From the IMG/VR virus record IMGVR_UViG_3300006789_000234, positions 1 through 20,701 of that record: DNA of 20,701 bases. One strand, 5' to 3'. The position numbers and the translations under genes were made by a program. Below are positions 723 to 20,701 of this stretch, piece after piece (positions within the stretch are counted from its first letter, which is position 1; each line of letters starts with the position of its first letter). The notes beneath the pieces are model-generated. The model was not told the DNA's origin and did no database searches. It saw only the letters and a program-made list of their open reading frames with translations. Source of the stretch: a virus.

Positions 723-736
723 GATCGTGATTAGGG

Positions 737-793
737 GCTACTCCCTACCTGGGTGTAGCAAACCAACGTGGCGCAAGCCACTAATATAGGAGG
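737..793 (+). promoter_or_regulatory. Structured leader with two tandem hairpins before the 799 gene
   Basis: The gap can fold into two adjacent hairpins. Hairpin 1 pairs GCTAC (737-741) with GTAGC (755-759), has a T/T mismatch, then pairs CCC (743-745) with GGG (751-753) around a five-base loop. Hairpin 2 pairs GTGGC (768-772) with GCCAC (777-781) closed by a GCAA tetraloop. The Shine-Dalgarno AGGAGG (788-793) follows directly. CTCC at 741-744 could instead pair with GGAG at 789-792, which would hide the ribosome-binding site. It matches no riboswitch class I can name. A cis-regulatory or RNA-stabilising role is inferred. Confidence 0.45.
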
Positions 794-798
794 CTATT

Positions 799-1056
799 AT
801 GCCTTTATTCAGTAGTGTATCAGTAAAGATGTTAAAGGGCTGTGAACTGACCGAGCAGGATTGGATGGATGCGGTGAGGAAACAGGATAGGACTGACGCT
901 GAGATAGAGAGGCGCAGAGGGAAGTATGAGTGGTGGGAATCCACTGATCCTATAGCACTCCAGGAACTGGATGACACTAGGTTGGGTGTCTATCTGGATG
1001 GTGGAAAGACCTGGAAGCAGGTTCAAGGGGAATGTGAGGAGATAAATGATGTTTGA
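799..1056 (+). CDS. Hypothetical charged protein, 85 aa
   Basis: Not recognised. AGGAGG at 788-793 gives a clear start at 799. The central part (about residues 20-50) is rich in Asp, Glu, Arg and Trp and looks helical; the C-terminal third is acidic and contains a YLDGG segment. There is no membrane segment or metal-binding motif. It is the first gene after the structured leader, so any regulation by those hairpins would act on it first. It overlaps the next gene by 11 bases, and the SD of that gene (GAGGAG) lies within its last codons. Confidence 0.65.
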   Translation: MPLFSSVSVKMLKGCELTEQDWMDAVRKQDRTDAEIERRRGKYEWWESTDPIALQELDDTRLGVYLDGGKTWKQVQGECEEINDV

Positions 1057-1261: not shown

Positions 1262-2275
1262 ATGACAGCGAAGATAGCGGTAACTGATCTGCCTAAGTAT
1301 CTGACGTTTGCCACGCAGAATGGTAATTCTGTGATGGTAGTAGGGGAATCAGGTATAGGCAAGACAGAAGTGGTTAACTCTTGGGCTATGGCTGAGTTGG
1401 GTAATGTCATAGACTTTAGAGCCACGCAAATAGGTGATGCTGATATCCGAGGTGTGCCATACAGGGATGAGTTGCTTTCCAGATGGGCGATACCCGACTT
1501 CCTTCCCAGGGTTGATAGGGATGGGGAGAGAGGCGCGTTCGTAATGGATGAGTTCCTGGATCAGAATATGGAATCGGTTAAGGCATCGTTGCAACAACTC
1601 TTTCTTGAGAAAAGACTGGGAGACTACAAGTTTCCTGAGAGTTGGATAATCATAGCCATAGGTAACAGGCGTGAGCATGGTGGTATAAACAGGGGTTTAT
1701 CCTACGCATTACAGGATAGATTCTCCCATTATGAGGTGGTGTTAGACCCAGATGGGTTGCTCAGATACCTCATGAAGATGGGTGTTGACCCTATGGTGCA
1801 ATCCTTTCTTAAGATGCACGGTAATTTTATGCACATGAGGCCAGAGAAGGGTGATGGTAACTGGGCGTGGCCCACACCTAGAAGTTGGGAAAAGCTGAGT
1901 AAAACCAGGAGCCTTAACCCACCAGATGACATAAGGTTTCACTTATATTCAGCAGATGTGGGAGAAGGGGCAGCGGTAGCGTTCAGAGCGCATGAGAAGG
2001 TAGCATCTGAGGTGCCTGATCCTGATGACTGCATAAAGAATCCAGGCAAGGCCAAGGTTCCTGAGAACCCAAGTGCACAGTATGCTATAGCATGTAGTCT
2101 GGCATTTCATTCAAGCCCAGAAAATTATGAGTCTGTCTTGAAATACATGAGCCGATTGCCTGCTGAGTATGGTATAATGGTAGTGAAGGAATCAACCAGT
2201 AACAAGCCAGAACTATGTGATACCAAGGCGTTCACTGATTTCGGTATGAAGAATACTGATATCCTATTAGGATAA
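1262..2275 (+). CDS. MoxR-like AAA+ ATPase, 337 aa
   Basis: An AAA+ ATPase of the MoxR/dynein-related type. Walker A is GESGIGKT (residues 28-35), Walker B is FVMDEF with D96 and E97, sensor 1 is the Asn of IGNR (N135), and LQDRF around residues 149-154 carries the likely arginine finger (R153). Such proteins form hexameric rings that remodel a client through a VWA-domain partner. That partner lies two genes downstream (2624-3748), which strongly supports the class. The start has AGGAG upstream. The C-terminal third lacks a second recognisable domain. Phage versions are often labelled CobS-like, but the VWA partner here fits a MoxR/DUF2201 pairing better. Client and purpose in the phage are unknown. 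Confidence 0.9.
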   Translation: MTAKIAVTDLPKYLTFATQNGNSVMVVGESGIGKTEVVNSWAMAELGNVIDFRATQIGDADIRGVPYRDELLSRWAIPDFLPRVDRDGERGAFVMDEFLDQNMESVKASLQQLFLEKRLGDYKFPESWIIIAIGNRREHGGINRGLSYALQDRFSHYEVVLDPDGLLRYLMKMGVDPMVQSFLKMHGNFMHMRPEKGDGNWAWPTPRSWEKLSKTRSLNPPDDIRFHLYSADVGEGAAVAFRAHEKVASEVPDPDDCIKNPGKAKVPENPSAQYAIACSLAFHSSPENYESVLKYMSRLPAEYGIMVVKESTSNKPELCDTKAFTDFGMKNTDILLG

Positions 2276-2285
2276 GGAGTTTAAT

Positions 2286-2633
2286 ATGGCTAAGAAAGTT
2301 GGGTTTAAGTCTCTGTATTATGATATAATGTATGTAATAGGAGATCATGCATATCAGTATTTTGAATCTATCCCTTGCGTAGATGATGAACTAACATGGA
2401 AGCATGGTTTTTGGTGGAATGTATTCCAGTTCTGTATTGTTAGGGGTATGCCAGATAATCAAGAGATTTATTATACATCTATTCATAATGAAGATACCTG
2501 TAGAGATACAGTACGGTTTTATGATGGGCTTGATGAAGAAGATGCAGAGACAAGAAGGATAGATAACCTAAGTCCAGAGGAAGCGTTTTCTGAATTACTA
2601 GATGAAGCAGAGGGAGAAAGCGTATGCAGTTAG
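2286..2633 (+). CDS. Hypothetical acidic protein between the ATPase and the VWA gene, 115 aa
   Basis: Not recognised. AAGGAG precedes the ATG. The protein is rich in aromatic residues in its first half (Tyr, Phe and Trp around residues 10-55) and ends in a strongly acidic tail (about residues 75-112). There is no transmembrane segment or catalytic motif. It overlaps the VWA gene by ten bases, so the two are probably translated together. Sitting between the two parts of the ATPase-VWA pair, it may be an adaptor or a client; that is inferred from position only. Confidence 0.65.
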   Translation: MAKKVGFKSLYYDIMYVIGDHAYQYFESIPCVDDELTWKHGFWWNVFQFCIVRGMPDNQEIYYTSIHNEDTCRDTVRFYDGLDEEDAETRRIDNLSPEEAFSELLDEAEGESVCS

Positions 2634-3748
2634 AAAGAAAACTTGAGGCTTCAAGGTCACACGCATTACTAGACCATCCGTTCTTCGGTACGTTGCTGTG
2701 TCCTATGAAGATGAAGCCACATAATGAGATAGATACCTTTGCTACTGATGGGGTTTCTATATTCTACAATGAGGAGTACGCTGATAGCCTGAGTACTGAG
2801 TTGGTTACTGGTATACTGCTACATGAGGTGATGCACTGTGGGTTCTTTCATGTGACCAGGAGAGGAACAAGGAATCCTATGGTATGGAATCTAGCATGTG
2901 ACTATGCTATCAACCCATTGCTTGTTAAGTATGGCATCAAACTTCCAGAAAGTGCATTACTAGATGAGAAGTACGATGAGTGGAGTGCTGATGCAATCTA
3001 TAATGACCTGATAAAGAACGCTACGGAAGTTGATGGGCCTGGGTTGGGGGATATTGGTGGAACTGGATACTTTGAAGATGGTAAGTTAACATCATCAGAG
3101 AAGCAAGAGGTAGAGAATGAATGGAAAGAAAGGCTAGTATCTGCTGCTGAAGCATGCAAACTAAGGGGTACATTGCCTGGAGAATTCAAGAGTTTAATAG
3201 ATGAATTTCTTGAGCCTAAAGTATTATGGGGTGAGCAGTTAAGGATGTACGCCTATGATCTAGTGAGATATGACTCAAGTTGGACTAAGCCTAACAAAAG
3301 ATTCATAGATGATGGGATATATTTACCATCAGTTAAGAAAATGAACGGCATAAGTAAATTAGTAGTAGCAACAGATGATAGCGGTTCAATGACCCCATAC
3401 CTTGACCAATGTGGTGGGGAGATAACTTCAATAATGGAGGAGTGTGATATAGATGAATGTATCGTTCTTTATGTTGATAGTGCTGTTAATAATGTACAAC
3501 GCTATACCCCTGACGATCTACCGATAGTTATAGATAGCAGGGGTGGTGGTGGTACATCGTTCGAGCCTGCCTTTGAATGGGTAGAGGAACATGATGAGAA
3601 TCCTACACTGTTTATATATCTAACAGATATGTTCGGTTCTTTTCCTGAGTATGCACCAGATTACCCTGTATTATGGGTTGCTTTTGATGCTGATCCAGGG
3701 TATTATAAGGATAAGTGTGGGTTCGGTGAGATAATCGTAGTAGATTAA
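2624..3748 (+). CDS. Zincin-like plus VWA domain protein (DUF2201-like), 374 aa
   Basis: Two parts are visible. The N-terminal half has HEVMHCGFFH (H67, E68, H71, H76), a HExxHxxxxH metal-binding pattern typical of the putative metallopeptidase domain DUF2201. The C-terminal half is a von Willebrand factor A domain with an apparently complete MIDAS: DDSGS (D251, S253, S255), the Thr of GGGGTSFEP (T311) and the Asp of LTDMF (D335). This is the expected partner of a MoxR-like ATPase, which lies just upstream. The VWA part would bind a divalent metal and a partner protein; whether the zincin part cleaves anything is unknown. It overlaps the preceding gene by ten bases, with GGGAG as ribosome-binding site. 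Confidence 0.9.
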   Translation: MQLERKLEASRSHALLDHPFFGTLLCPMKMKPHNEIDTFATDGVSIFYNEEYADSLSTELVTGILLHEVMHCGFFHVTRRGTRNPMVWNLACDYAINPLLVKYGIKLPESALLDEKYDEWSADAIYNDLIKNATEVDGPGLGDIGGTGYFEDGKLTSSEKQEVENEWKERLVSAAEACKLRGTLPGEFKSLIDEFLEPKVLWGEQLRMYAYDLVRYDSSWTKPNKRFIDDGIYLPSVKKMNGISKLVVATDDSGSMTPYLDQCGGEITSIMEECDIDECIVLYVDSAVNNVQRYTPDDLPIVIDSRGGGGTSFEPAFEWVEEHDENPTLFIYLTDMFGSFPEYAPDYPVLWVAFDADPGYYKDKCGFGEIIVVD

Positions 3749-10174: not shown

Positions 10175-10348
10175 ATGTCTGACTATAAAATGAACTACCT
10201 TCCAGATGAAAGTGATGAACAGCAACAAAGGGATAACGAAGAAAGAGAACAGTACGAACAAGAGTATGAACAATGGTTGGATAACCTAGAGAAGAAGTCT
10301 AAACTTCAAAGAGAGGAACAAGATGACTCAAACCATAAAGGAAATTGA
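10175..10348 (+). CDS. Small acidic coiled-coil-like protein, 57 aa
   Basis: A short frame filling the gap between ninB and the Rad52-like gene. GGAG at 10163-10166, eight bases before ATG, supports the start. The product is almost wholly made of Glu, Gln, Asp, Lys, Arg and Asn and looks like one long charged helix (about residues 12-50). It overlaps the Rad52-like gene by 26 bases. No family is recognised. Codon use and spacing suit a real small gene. Confidence 0.6.
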   Translation: MSDYKMNYLPDESDEQQQRDNEEREQYEQEYEQWLDNLEKKSKLQREEQDDSNHKGN

Positions 10349-15836: not shown

Positions 15837-16082
15837 GGTACGTGTCGCCCCCGAAAGGGGGCGTATTTTTTTAACACACCCACGAGGAAATGCATGGGTA
15901 GCAAACCAATCACCACTCTCATCTTTCGTACACGCAACCTTGATAGTATCCTTATCTTTATATATAAGATATCCATAAGTATAGAAAGTTGGAGGAATAA
16001 CCTCCTCAAGTTTTTCCCACCCACACGTTGCAAATATATCACGCCACTCTACCTCTACTAATAAAGGCTTCTTTACTTTCAC
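15771..16082 (-). CDS. Conserved-looking phage protein, 103 aa, GTG start
   Basis: The GTG start at 16082 overlaps the TAG stop of the large gene (TAGTG), so the two are probably co-translated. Residues 1-75 are well ordered, with VEVEWRDI (9-16), GYLIYKDKDTIKVA (37-50) and HAFPRGCVKKIRPL (63-76), and resemble small phage proteins I recall ending at an I..L motif of that kind. The last 27 residues are low-complexity and are encoded opposite the + strand terminator and membrane peptide. No function is assigned. Confidence 0.7.
   Translation of the reverse strand: MKVKKPLLVEVEWRDIFATCGWEKLEEVIPPTFYTYGYLIYKDKDTIKVACTKDESGDWFATHAFPRGCVKKIRPLSGATRTSSKKQVDNKTRNENITSIPEN
15846..15872 (+). terminator. 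Strong intrinsic terminator of the + strand operon
   Basis: CGCCCCC (15846-15852) pairs perfectly with GGGGGCG (15857-15863) around a GAAA tetraloop, followed by TATTTTTTT to 15872. This is a very stable hairpin with a T tract on the + strand only. It ends the unit that began left of position 1. On the - strand the flank lacks a T tract, so it should not stop the converging transcript in the usual way. Confidence 0.92.
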
Positions 16083-19000
16083 TAGAATAACCTTTTAAAT
16101 CTCTTGAGACTTTCAGCCCACTTCCTATGTTCTTGTATGATTTTAAGTATATGTTCTCTGTACTCATTAGCAAGTCTTTCTCTCTTTTCTCTGCTCAGGC
16201 TTGGATCACTCAACATCCGCTCAGCCCTCTGCTCTATTTTTCTAATCTCTCTTTCCTTAAAATACAAAGCAGTATCTACATCCTGTGGCCCCATCTTTTG
16301 AAGGCTAACACCGAACCATGCAAGAGTGGCGTCCTTCATTGTGTACCTTGGCAGTCCATCCCTATCTACATTCCCATCAATAATATCAGCAGCCATCATG
16401 GTTTTAATTAATGGTCCGCCTCCTGTGCTAATATCTCCCGCCTTATTGCGAGGCATAATCATTGGTGGAATCATATAACTAGCTACAAACATCATCATAT
16501 CTTGATACCTTTGATGCACTGGATCAAACTCATTATATATAGGCTGTCTAGTAAAGGGGTCCTTATTAAGTTTAAGGGCAACAGGTATTTCAGCAGGCCC
16601 TGTAAACATCCCTATGCTACTATAGATAGCATCACCAAATTCAGCCTTTGCTACATTCTTAGCGAGGGCTGTATGAGCGCCCCAAGGTAAGAAGAAACTT
16701 ACATCCCACGCCTTCCATCTGTTGTTCTCATCCTTATACGGAAAGACCATAGTGCTAAACTCTTTCTCCATATAGTCAGGTAAGAAATCCATCAAAGCGT
16801 CCCAATCATCCTCATCCAGGTCATCATTCTGAGACAAGAACATTTCCATTAGCAGGTAAGGTAACGCAACATATTTAAGGGAAGCGAATGGATGGTTCTT
16901 TATATTTCTAGCCATCTGAGCCATCACCTTTGCATTAAAGGTAATAAACGGAGAGCCTAATGGTAGGGTCCTTAGCATCCTAATGCCCTGTGAAACATTA
17001 CCATAGTCTAGAAGCGCTTCATTAGCTAGCTTAGCTGCCTCGGCTTCTTTCTTGCCATGATTCTCCATGAGGTCTATCATCTTAGCAACCTTAAACAATA
17101 CCTCTGTCTTCTGGTATGCCCTGCCTCCAACATCCCCATAGTCATTAAAGAATATCCTAGCTCTAGCCCACATACCCTCGAAGCTGTCTCCTTTAGCCTT
17201 TACTGTAGCTAACTCCCTATCAATCTGACCCAGTTCTGTAGCTGCAAACGTAGTTGTTTCAAGACCATACTTTCTAGCAAGCTGCATGTATTTGCCATTG
17301 GTAGATACATCATGCATAGCTTTACTTACCGCACCTGGAATTCTTAAGAAGTTTGTTCCAGATACGTTCATTAGTATAGTGTTAGATATCATATTCCTAA
17401 CCTGAGTTGGAATATTCATTGGGACTTTAGTGTACTTAAAGGTAGCTTGCGCTCGACCACTCCACTTTAGGAGCGCACCCCATGAGGGATTACCTGTTAT
17501 ACCAAGACCATTTATATCATTCCATATATCCTTATGCACCCACAGCTCACGCATAGCGCCGTACCTAGGAGAGTCAGGAACCTTCCTGTAGTTATCCATG
17601 TTAAGCCCACGCATATCTACACTAACCTGATCAGCTGCTGCATTCATTTCTGAAGAAAGTTCTAGCATTTCAGCTGCCCTTGCGGGGTCAATCCTCTTGC
17701 CAGCATTAGCTCTGGTAGATATATCCGACGCCAGATTCTTAAAATAAGCGGCTGTCCCTATCATATTTCTGAAGGTCATTATCTGACCAGGCAATACCCA
17801 TTTGTTATTACCAGGATCACTGGCTATATAGCTAAGGTATTCTATGATAGCTAAGTCACTACCTGCCATAGTAAGATACCTGCCAGCCAAGAATGCTGGA
17901 TCATCTATACGACCAGATATAACATCATTCAGAAATTTCTCATGATCTTTTCTATGTTTAGTATACGTAAGACTTGACGCTCTAAGACCACCAATACCTA
18001 TCCTATCACGCCCACCCATTACGTGTTCCATATAAACACGGGGTAAATACTGGTTCTTCCATTCAGCATATTGAGCATCAGTAATAAGACCCGCAGCAAC
18101 TAGCCTCTCCCCCATGCTAGCTATCTCTTTCTTTGTCTCTATTACCTTTTCCTTTATACTGACAGATGGAGCTGTAGGGCCAGCCCTGGTTCCTCTTACT
18201 ACGGTTTTATGTTCAGCAAACTTAACCTTTCTAGTTGGGAGTTTAGACGGGTCAGCATTCCTGGTAGTAAAGTATTTATATATGGCTTTCTTTTCTGTGG
18301 GTGTAGCCTCGTTAAGAACATCAAAAACTATCCTACCTGTGTTAGCCCATTCTCCTACCTTTCCCTTGGTAAGCATACGTTTAGCCTCTAAAAGAGAATA
18401 CCCTTCTACAGCCATCAAAGGTTCTATCCTTCTCTGCATCCACTTAAGCGCTGAGTTTGCACGAGCAGTCCCAATCCTAGACTTAACAACCTCTCTAGCT
18501 GTCTCTCTTTCTAACCTTCTAGACTCAGTTATAGCAGAGGAATTAGGTTGACTTATAACTTTCTTAGTAGAGAATATACCAGTACCAGAATCAAATGATA
18601 GGTCATCAACAGATTTATATTGGTTATCATCCAGAAGAATCCAACTTTTACTACCAACATCTTCTGCATCATTGGTATATTCTATTGAATCGTAACCCTC
18701 TTCTTTTAAGAGCGCTCTTAATTCCCTAGAAAATTTTGCGTCCAAACTAAACATTCCAGCTATATCACTCTCATCATGTAAAGACCTCCTAGTTGTAGCA
18801 GTGCTTCTAGCAAGCTTAGATATCTTCTCCCATACAACCTCTTGTGCCTCTGGGGAATTGTATGCTGCACCCCCCCTTAGAACTCTATTAGCATGAGTAA
18901 ACCAAGAAGTCGGGTCACTAAAGTTTCCTAGGTCTCCAGTTATAAAAGGATTCTGTACATTTATATATCCACGCCTTATATTAGCCCCCTTCTCAAACCA

Positions 19001-20701
19001 TGTGTAACCAACCTCTTTTTGCATACCTAATGAATCAAATAAACCCTGAGCATCAGCTAAATTATCTGATGTTCTTAGTCGAAGCTTAGGGTCCCAACTA
19101 ATAGCTATCTTGTCTAGGTCACGATTAGAAATCCTAGACTCCCACCCAGGTTTCCACGCTTCCACCTCATCAGCTAACTCAGCCAAGGCTTCACTCTCTT
19201 GGATTGGCTTATCTCTAAAGTGTTCTGATGCAGATATATTAACAGCAGCAATAGAGGTCCCTACATGTAATCCAAGTTGGGTCTTCTCTATTAGAGGAGC
19301 GCTCCAATCGCTAGAAGTTCCATGATACACAGGTTCTTTCATTATAGAACCATCTAGAAACTCCTTCCTTTTCCCATCCCTAAACCTAGACATATTCTTG
19401 GAATCGCCATGCCTTTCTAAGGCTAGTATACCAGAGTGCCAAGTAGAATAACCAATAAGATTTACAATATCATCAAGAGTTACATTTGAAACATTCATAT
19501 CAGTTCCAAATACCTTATTGAAAAATGTTTTAAATGCATTCTTTATCTTATCTAGTAATCCTTTTCTAGAAGGAGAGTCTAAGGCTGGTTGCTTGATCTC
19601 TACTACATGAGCAAGAACCTCTTCCCAGAACTCACGCCTAACGTGGAAATTAATATGCTTGGCTGCTGGGTCAAACGGTCTGCCAGTATCAGCTTTCTTA
19701 TACCCATAGTTACGCATTACCCTAGCAACAGCTGTATTAACTATGTCGTCCCCATTCTGCCCTAACTTATAAAGCTCATCTAGAACTGAGTTCCATTCGC
19801 TACCGCTGAATACATCTCTACCAAAGTGTACCCCTACCTCATGGAATAACAACCCTCTTACATCTTTGGCAGTCATGTCAGAAGAGATTTTATCTCGTAT
19901 AAAATAGATAGTTCCGTTGCCTCTAGAAACAAAAGCCTGTGCAGTATCAGACGCACCCATATCCTTTGCTTTGTTTCTGTCTATGAAGTTTATAAACCCT
20001 ATCTCTTCTAGTCGTCTTGCTCCCTTATCCCCAAAGATACTTCTAACCTGAGACCTAACTAACTTCTCTGCCTGCCCAGGAGAATGGAATGTTGTTGCCT
20101 TGTTAAGACGCCTGCTCTCTACAACATCATCGTTCTCTTTCGTTTCAGTCAGATCATTTTTTGTGTATGCATCCTCCATAGGAGAGACGTACCACTCCAT
20201 TATGGAAGCGGCAATATCTTCTTTCTTTCCTTTGGGGTTATAGTTAAAGTCGGGATTTAAAGCTTTAATATTAGCTGCTAGACTTTTAACTTCATCGACT
20301 GAATAGCCGTTTTGTGATGGTGGGGTGGTTAACTTACTGTGCAGGTCAGCTGGATTCTCATTAGCTAGAATAGAATCAACGCTTACCTTATCTGTAGACT
20401 TCCCTTTTTTTCTATCGGCTCTCTCTTTTGCATACTGACGGTCTAGAGCAGACTGTTCTTCAGCAATACTGTATCCAAACAACCTATCAAACTCTGCCTC
20501 AGACAGTTCTTTTTCTGTCACTGCCTCATCAAGGCTTGTTTCAACAGGTTCTATATCCTCAACTTTTACTTCTTCATCTACTTTTTTTTTAGTATCTAGG
20601 AAGTCTCTGATAGGACCAGTGTCCTTACCTTTGTCATCTAGAAAATCTACCCATCTTTGGAGGCTCTCGTCAAAGTCAGCCTGGGTTGCACCTGGTACTA
20701 C
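16082..20701 (-). CDS. Large polyvalent phage protein with zincin and ADP-ribosyltransferase-like domains, partial (5' end outside window)
   Basis: At least 1539 residues. The frame stays open to the right edge; the GTG at 20521 is only an internal Val codon, so the true start is outside. From the visible N-end: a charged, likely disordered region to about 200; a zincin motif HEVGVH (residues 287-292 of the visible part, 19826-19843) with a downstream Glu pair in FWEEVLAHVVE; an ADP-ribosyltransferase-like region opening at YHGTSS (about 459-464) and closing at GYDSIEYTN...SKSWILLDDNQYKS near 18690-18600; then a long mostly helical part with LPLGSPFITFNAKV (about 16940) and a hydrophobic patch, typical of phage large polyvalent proteins. 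It may be virion-packaged and injected (inferred). The stop is coupled to the 103-aa gene. Confidence 0.85.
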   Translation of the reverse strand, partial: VVPGATQADFDESLQRWVDFLDDKGKDTGPIRDFLDTKKKVDEEVKVEDIEPVETSLDEAVTEKELSEAEFDRLFGYSIAEEQSALDRQYAKERADRKKGKSTDKVSVDSILANENPADLHSKLTTPPSQNGYSVDEVKSLAANIKALNPDFNYNPKGKKEDIAASIMEWYVSPMEDAYTKNDLTETKENDDVVESRRLNKATTFHSPGQAEKLVRSQVRSIFGDKGARRLEEIGFINFIDRNKAKDMGASDTAQAFVSRGNGTIYFIRDKISSDMTAKDVRGLLFHEVGVHFGRDVFSGSEWNSVLDELYKLGQNGDDIVNTAVARVMRNYGYKKADTGRPFDPAAKHINFHVRREFWEEVLAHVVEIKQPALDSPSRKGLLDKIKNAFKTFFNKVFGTDMNVSNVTLDDIVNLIGYSTWHSGILALERHGDSKNMSRFRDGKRKEFLDGSIMKEPVYHGTSSDWSAPLIEKTQLGLHVGTSIAAVNISASEHFRDKPIQESEALAELADEVEAWKPGWESRISNRDLDKIAISWDPKLRLRTSDNLADAQGLFDSLGMQKEVGYTWFEKGANIRRGYINVQNPFITGDLGNFSDPTSWFTHANRVLRGGAAYNSPEAQEVVWEKISKLARSTATTRRSLHDESDIAGMFSLDAKFSRELRALLKEEGYDSIEYTNDAEDVGSKSWILLDDNQYKSVDDLSFDSGTGIFSTKKVISQPNSSAITESRRLERETAREVVKSRIGTARANSALKWMQRRIEPLMAVEGYSLLEAKRMLTKGKVGEWANTGRIVFDVLNEATPTEKKAIYKYFTTRNADPSKLPTRKVKFAEHKTVVRGTRAGPTAPSVSIKEKVIETKKEIASMGERLVAAGLITDAQYAEWKNQYLPRVYMEHVMGGRDRIGIGGLRASSLTYTKHRKDHEKFLNDVISGRIDDPAFLAGRYLTMAGSDLAIIEYLSYIASDPGNNKWVLPGQIMTFRNMIGTAAYFKNLASDISTRANAGKRIDPARAAEMLELSSEMNAAADQVSVDMRGLNMDNYRKVPDSPRYGAMRELWVHKDIWNDINGLGITGNPSWGALLKWSGRAQATFKYTKVPMNIPTQVRNMISNTILMNVSGTNFLRIPGAVSKAMHDVSTNGKYMQLARKYGLETTTFAATELGQIDRELATVKAKGDSFEGMWARARIFFNDYGDVGGRAYQKTEVLFKVAKMIDLMENHGKKEAEAAKLANEALLDYGNVSQGIRMLRTLPLGSPFITFNAKVMAQMARNIKNHPFASLKYVALPYLLMEMFLSQNDDLDEDDWDALMDFLPDYMEKEFSTMVFPYKDENNRWKAWDVSFFLPWGAHTALAKNVAKAEFGDAIYSSIGMFTGPAEIPVALKLNKDPFTRQPIYNEFDPVHQRYQDMMMFVASYMIPPMIMPRNKAGDISTGGGPLIKTMMAADIIDGNVDRDGLPRYTMKDATLAWFGVSLQKMGPQDVDTALYFKEREIRKIEQRAERMLSDPSLSREKRERLANEYREHILKIIQEHRKWAESLKRFKRLF

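Follow-up and report, generated by a model that had tools for sequence, protein, structure and literature searches.

A small phage gene is preceded by a five-pair hairpin with a GCAA loop, H2, that lies just upstream of its ribosome-binding site, and comparison of the stem across three related sequences, admittedly a small sample, supports its being a covarying cis-acting RNA hairpin. We propose, with a probability of about 0.5, that H2 is a short mRNA element of the translation-initiation region of this gene (the 799 gene, named for its start), that it acts through its shape, and that it is probably linked to translational coupling between the 799 gene and the gene that precedes it in relatives (gene X). 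The DNA analysed, hereafter the window, is a virus record of 20,701 bases. The features of the junction are as follows.

727 to 789, plus strand: possible 20-codon ORF with a GTG start and a poorly placed Shine-Dalgarno (SD) sequence, running through both hairpins to a stop at TAGGAGG
737 to 759, plus strand: H1, imperfect hairpin GCTAC-T-CCC / GGG-T-GTAGC with loop TACCT (from the sequence and RNAfold)
768 to 781, plus strand: H2, GTGGC-GCAA-GCCAC, a GNRA-loop hairpin whose 3′ end lies 6 nt ahead of the SD
782 to 787, plus strand: A+T-rich linker TAATAT between H2 and the SD
788 to 793, plus strand: Shine-Dalgarno sequence AGGAGG, reading TAGGAGG with the preceding T
789 to 806, plus strand: H3, predicted SD pairing (RNAfold) of GGAGGC with GCCTTT of codons 2-4, with the AUG in the loop
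799 to 1056, plus strand: the 799 gene, 85 aa, 3′ of the hairpins

The first-pass annotation had described two tandem hairpins in one of the few intergenic gaps of the window, and both observations held. The arms of H1, at 737-745 and 751-759, pair at eight of nine positions, the exception being a T/T mismatch, H2 consists of five perfect pairs, and the two hairpins are present in both the minimum-energy structure and the centroid of RNAfold, with pair probabilities of 0.94-0.97 for H2. The gap itself, 723-798 (76 nt), ends at the ATG at 799 and is one of three that reach 20 nt in a set of 30 plus-strand ORFs picked by hand from the ORF list. Because the 106-nt leader is not unusually stable (z-score -1.53; 15 of 200 shuffles as stable), we make no claim from stability alone: its energy is unremarkable for its composition, and it is conservation, not energy, that lifts H2 above chance. 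A search of the window allowing up to three mismatches returned no copy of H1 besides H1 itself.

The Rfam scan suggested as a check reached no family. The whole window gave no match at the gathering threshold, and at a relaxed E of up to 10 positions 600-900 gave three matches far below threshold, none of them on the plus strand of 737-793; H2 is no Rfam-class leader. No Rho-independent terminator site was found on the plus strand of 400-1400, where the single terminator-like site reported is H2 on the minus strand, with a weak tail (GTTGGTTTGC); on the plus strand H2 is followed by TAATATAGGAGG. Terminator and promoter readings of the junction are unsupported on the plus strand.

Relatives were gathered by scanning IMG/VR with the ATPase encoded at 1262-2275, which returned L002, L003 and L004. 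Alignment-based scans and a scan with a DNA pattern contributed one further contig, L007; L005, L006, L014 and L015 were duplicates and were dropped. Searching IMG/VR with the 799 or the 483 protein singly found no relatives. The ATPase is 81-93% identical to that of the window in three contigs (L002, L003 and L007) and 26% identical in L004/L013, where profile and tblastn searches found no 799-like match and which were left out of both the leader comparison and the survey of gene starts described below. A genome scan yielded at least 80 loci; the leader was read in L016, a locus of a bacterial metagenome-assembled genome with an ATPase 53% identical, and the other 79 listed are at most 27% identical at the ATPase. 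The contig of L002 begins downstream of the leader, and its first 99 bases correspond to the end of a 799-like gene only by weak alignment, with no match in profile and tblastn searches. The 799 protein has no match in Pfam or PHROGs; its relatives are 78% identical in L003, 36% in L007 and 22% in L016, the last assigned from its position and a weak similarity. Among named phages and plasmids neither related DNA nor a match to the 799 protein or its L007 homologue was found, and gene X had no match among named phages.

In the relatives the junction has a different upstream neighbor. Gene X lies directly 5′ of the 799 gene in L003 (227 aa), L007 (248 aa) and L016 (187 aa), and the order X, 799 gene, small gene, ATPase is shared by L003 and L007 and, with a 799-like gene placed by order, by L016. 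The shorter start choices were used for L003 and L007 in the alignments of X. The window has no tblastn match to X at an E-value of 0.01; ahead of the 799 gene it carries instead the ORFs 64-270, 264-467 and 483-722, followed by the 76-nt gap, and a relative of ORF 264-467 is found 5′ of X in the contig of L007. X ends in L003 and L007 at a TAG that forms part of TAGGAGG and overlaps the SD, and in L016 the stop of X and the start of the 799-like gene overlap as TAATG. An upstream stop close to or overlapping the downstream ribosome-binding site or start, as in a coupled gene pair, is therefore found in all three; the window has this layout only if the putative 20-codon ORF is counted. The window nevertheless keeps TAG at 787-789, the counterpart of the stop of X in L003 and L007. 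A start-less stretch of the window also follows, as read by eye, the frame of X of L007 (LGATPYLGVANQRGASH in the window, VGGMVKQRGYENIHKY in L007) and is ended by TAA at 782-784. Alignment of 723-767 with the relatives is suggestive of a decayed remnant of X but not significant (P 0.075 against L003 and 0.166 against L007).

H2 is preserved across this change of neighbor. Both L003 (GTGATGAT-GGAG-ATCATCAC, 897-916) and L007 (GTGGGTAT-GAAA-ATATCCAC, 972-991) carry a perfect tetraloop hairpin of eight pairs, 7 nt ahead of AGGAGG compared with 6 nt in the window, and there the hairpin is encoded in the last codons of X. The three basal pairs are invariant among the three sequences. Pair 4 is G-C in the window, A-T in L003 and G-C in L007; pair 5 is C-G, T-A and G-T, respectively; pair 6, absent in the window, is G-C in L003 and T-A in L007; and pairs 7 and 8 are the same in both relatives. 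Three pairs (4, 5 and 6) have thus changed on both sides and none is broken, in a three-way table made by hand in a script, which leans towards structure. The MAFFT alignment misplaced the gap of the shorter window stem. For L003 against L007, where the stem needs no gap, a tool count found all eight pairs kept, three with changes on both sides, and six slid versions of the stem gave no both-sided change. Column shuffling reached the observed covariation in 54 of 500 cases, a control that with two rows cannot discriminate. The covariation check proposed by the first-pass annotation thus came out in favor of H2, and conservation of the stem in related phages, whose absence it named as refuting, was found for H2 in L003 and L007 and failed in the more distant L016, which has X and a 799-like gene without H2. 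An H2-like stem is found in three of the four loci that show the junction.

Ordinary folding of a moderately G+C-rich leader, with the match in the relatives owed to luck and to coding constraint on the tail of X, would account for H2 by chance; we consider this unlikely, and it is the rival that fares best. The low z-scores, the absence of H2 from L016 and the weakness of the two-row covariation controls all speak for it, as does the ease with which a stem of at least five pairs arises: shuffling gives one in 5-9% of cases, and randomising the synonymous codons of the X tail does so in 24-28%. By the criterion of a tetraloop stem of at least five pairs at the place of H2, 4.8% of 20,000 leader shuffles reached the observed window stem. 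The 8-pair stems of the relatives, however, were rare under both nulls, each at about 1% or below: they were reached in 0.67% (L003) and 0.57% (L007) of leader shuffles and, since H2 lies there in the last codons of X, in 1.2% (L003) and 0.95% (L007) of randomisations of synonymous codons; these figures are not fully independent because the phages are related. The last residues of X, where H2 is encoded, are poorly conserved between L003 and L007, so that protein constraint fails to explain the kept stem.

The distribution of such hairpins also argues against chance. We surveyed 77 SD-bearing starts on the dominant strand of four contigs only (the window, L009, L010 and L012), taking ATG ORFs of at least 60 aa with an SD-like motif and at least 80 nt from a contig end. 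A tetraloop stem of at least five pairs ending 4-10 nt before the SD precedes four of them, and three of these four, including both 8-pair stems, belong to the 799 gene; the fourth is at 10323 of the window. When the 77 are ordered by the folding energy of the 110 nt around each, the three 799 starts take ranks 1, 2 and 4.

The suggestion that the whole leader is a cis-acting RNA element was accordingly substantiated in part: it stands for H2, with its covarying stem in three of four loci, and is undecided for H1. A 12-pair hairpin is predicted at the place corresponding to H1 in L003 (856-888) and L007 (931-963). All 12 pairs are kept between these two, ten of them without variation, the innermost with changes on both sides and another with a change on one, and 242 of 500 shuffles of the two rows gave covariation as high. 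Against dinucleotide shuffles the hairpin has P values of 0.057 in the window, 0.15 in L003 and 0.19 in L007; its stability exceeds that of synonymous randomisations in L003 (P 0.0085) and L007 (P 0.038). The counterpart encodes a conserved stretch of X, GI[IV]LRLR[LV]GGMVK, and the H1 segment of the window does not align significantly with it. Because the counterpart is coding and this alignment is non-significant, H1 of the window may or may not be the same element as the hairpin of the relatives.

The mode of SD sequestration first envisaged, a CTCC-GGAG switch, is not supported. By sequence, CTCC in the first stem (741-744) is able to pair with the SD, but forcing this pairing yields a structure of -24.6 instead of -31.5, a cost of 6.9 kcal/mol, and direct reading of the leaders of L003 and L007 found no CTCC. 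If the SD is masked at all, the predicted masking partner is codons 2-4 of its own gene. This pairing, H3, is predicted in the window, L003 and L007 at -5.1 to -7.9 kcal/mol, weakest in L007 (-5.1), with shuffle P values of 0.065, 0.028 and 0.23, respectively. Pairing of the SD is frequent in these phages (mean 0.41 over the 77 starts) and not extreme at the 799 starts, two of which rank 9 and 12, that of L007 (0.69) falling outside the 14 listed.

These observations lead us to the reading given at the outset, of H2 as a short element of the 799 initiation region that acts by shape. H2 is a compact tetraloop stem where the preceding reading frame ends, 6-7 nt ahead of AGGAGG; because pairing and place are kept while loop and stem letters vary, a structural role is likelier than that of an operator read by sequence. 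In L003 and L007, a ribosome finishing X would melt H1 and H2 and halt on the TAG that overlaps the SD, freeing the SD from H3, and such release by the terminating ribosome would couple X and the 799 gene. When no ribosome arrives from X, H2 would fold and give the ribosome-binding site a defined edge. Because X is missing from the window, coupling is not its present role there, unless the putative 20-codon ORF is translated; an untranslated H2 may instead insulate the linker and the SD from upstream pairing, may protect the 5′ side of a processed mRNA, or both. Against this reading, only three sequences carry H2, L016 lacks H2 although it has X and a 799-like gene, whose stop and start overlap, the total folding energy is not unusual, and pairing of the SD is common.

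Phage systems described in the literature offer partial parallels. Hairpin-gated translational coupling is described for genes VII-IX of phage f1 in the review PMC12548453. There, as here, a hairpin stands at the end of the upstream cistron, shortly 5′ of the downstream gene, and the stop codon near the downstream ribosome-binding site in L003 and L007 extends the likeness; the f1 hairpin is described as long, against the 5-8 pairs of H2, the upstream gene is gone from the window, and coupling of X with the 799 gene is a prediction from the sequence layout. In T4, section 29 of PMC3014915 describes enhancing intervening structures at the initiation regions of genes 25 and 38 that are restricted to a lineage. 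Like H2, each is a hairpin at one initiation region that is absent from more distant relatives; unlike H2, which lies 5′ of a normally spaced SD, theirs is placed between the SD and the AUG, whose spacing it shortens. The same section describes inhibitory structures for T4 e, soc, 49 and I-TevI, in which the SD is paired away as in the predicted H3; by comparison H3 is weak, and H2 leaves the SD free. Among the open-licence papers listed on such phage elements and on candidate structured RNAs, no title or abstract opening names the junction.

Somewhat less probable than chance, in our estimate, is a role in mRNA processing or stability, in which H2 with H1 would be the structured 5′ end that an endonucleolytic cut leaves behind, or would impede decay between the cistrons of X and the 799 gene. 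A variable loop and variable stem letters suit a purely structural barrier, and H2, lying outside the SD, need not block ribosomes. A stem of 5-8 pairs, however, is a short substrate for RNase III, and there is no terminator-like site on the plus strand of 400-1400.

We judge a translational operator bound by a phage protein to be improbable. A hairpin and SD in one stretch recall the operator of T4 gene 43 (DNA polymerase), a small hairpin with a flank that reaches the ribosome-binding site, as described in PMC3014915. In that account the operator is protein-bound and its loop letters are conserved, the T4 and RB69 operators being identical in their top 10 bases. By contrast, the conserved loop and stem letters expected of a protein-bound operator were not found in H2: its loops are GCAA, GGAG and GAAA, its stems have 5, 8 and 8 pairs, and only the basal three pairs are invariant.

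A DNA-level feature, such as a single-stranded promoter hairpin or a replication or recombination site, is very improbable: an inverted repeat works in DNA too, and the genes 5′ of the junction differ between the window and its relatives, but the G-T pair of the L007 stem suits RNA, the hairpin is tied to one gene start and one SD distance, and its loops are of 4 nt, against the 3-nt hairpin loops of N4 early promoters.

The lack of X in the window raises a further, tentative possibility, to which we give less credence than to the initiation-region role: that the hairpin outlived the gene that encoded it. H2 would have persisted in the window, together with the stop triplet and the SD, as an independent, untranslated control element whose arms regained pairing as their sequence changed. 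X may have been lost, or its tail may have been gained. If so, an uncultured phage group shows a constraint on RNA structure that has outlasted replacement of the overlapping gene, and the 799 gene is marked as one whose translation merits control; otherwise H2 is one more phage translation-initiation hairpin of a familiar kind.

Several minor observations were made elsewhere in the window. Positions 1262-3748 encode the ATPase (PHROG 1297), one named-phage match of which is annotated N4 gp24-like, and then a DUF2201 metallopeptidase/VWA protein; the pair occurs in a distant uncultured group that carries, besides, a primase-helicase, an exonuclease, an Erf-like annealing protein, an SSB and a ribonucleotide reductase. 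The end of the ATPase gene (2260-2274) reads TATCCT-NNT-RGGATA, with the stop codon directly before the next SD (GATATCCT....GGATAAGGAG), in all five loci looked at (the window, L002, L003, L007 and L016). Coding of DILLG-stop may explain this pattern, yet all five share the ATC and GGA codons. Between the ATPase and metallopeptidase/VWA genes, the window has a 115-aa gene (2286-2633) with no tblastn match in L009, L010, L012, L013 or L016; at this place in L002, L003 and L007 a gene starts directly after the ATPase stop.

The most stable of the nine plus-strand GNRA hairpins of at least five pairs in the window is at 15846-15863 (CGCCCCCGAAAGGGGGCG), with seven pairs, a GAAA loop and -15.7 kcal/mol, followed on the plus strand by TATTTTTTT. 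It lies near the convergence of plus- and minus-strand genes and is possibly a terminator, though it falls inside a 103-aa minus-strand ORF. Beyond it, 16082-20521 on the minus strand encodes a 1479-aa protein with weak family matches to PHROG 21376 (9e-5) and PHROG 873 (5e-4), perhaps, at a guess, a large virion-associated protein.
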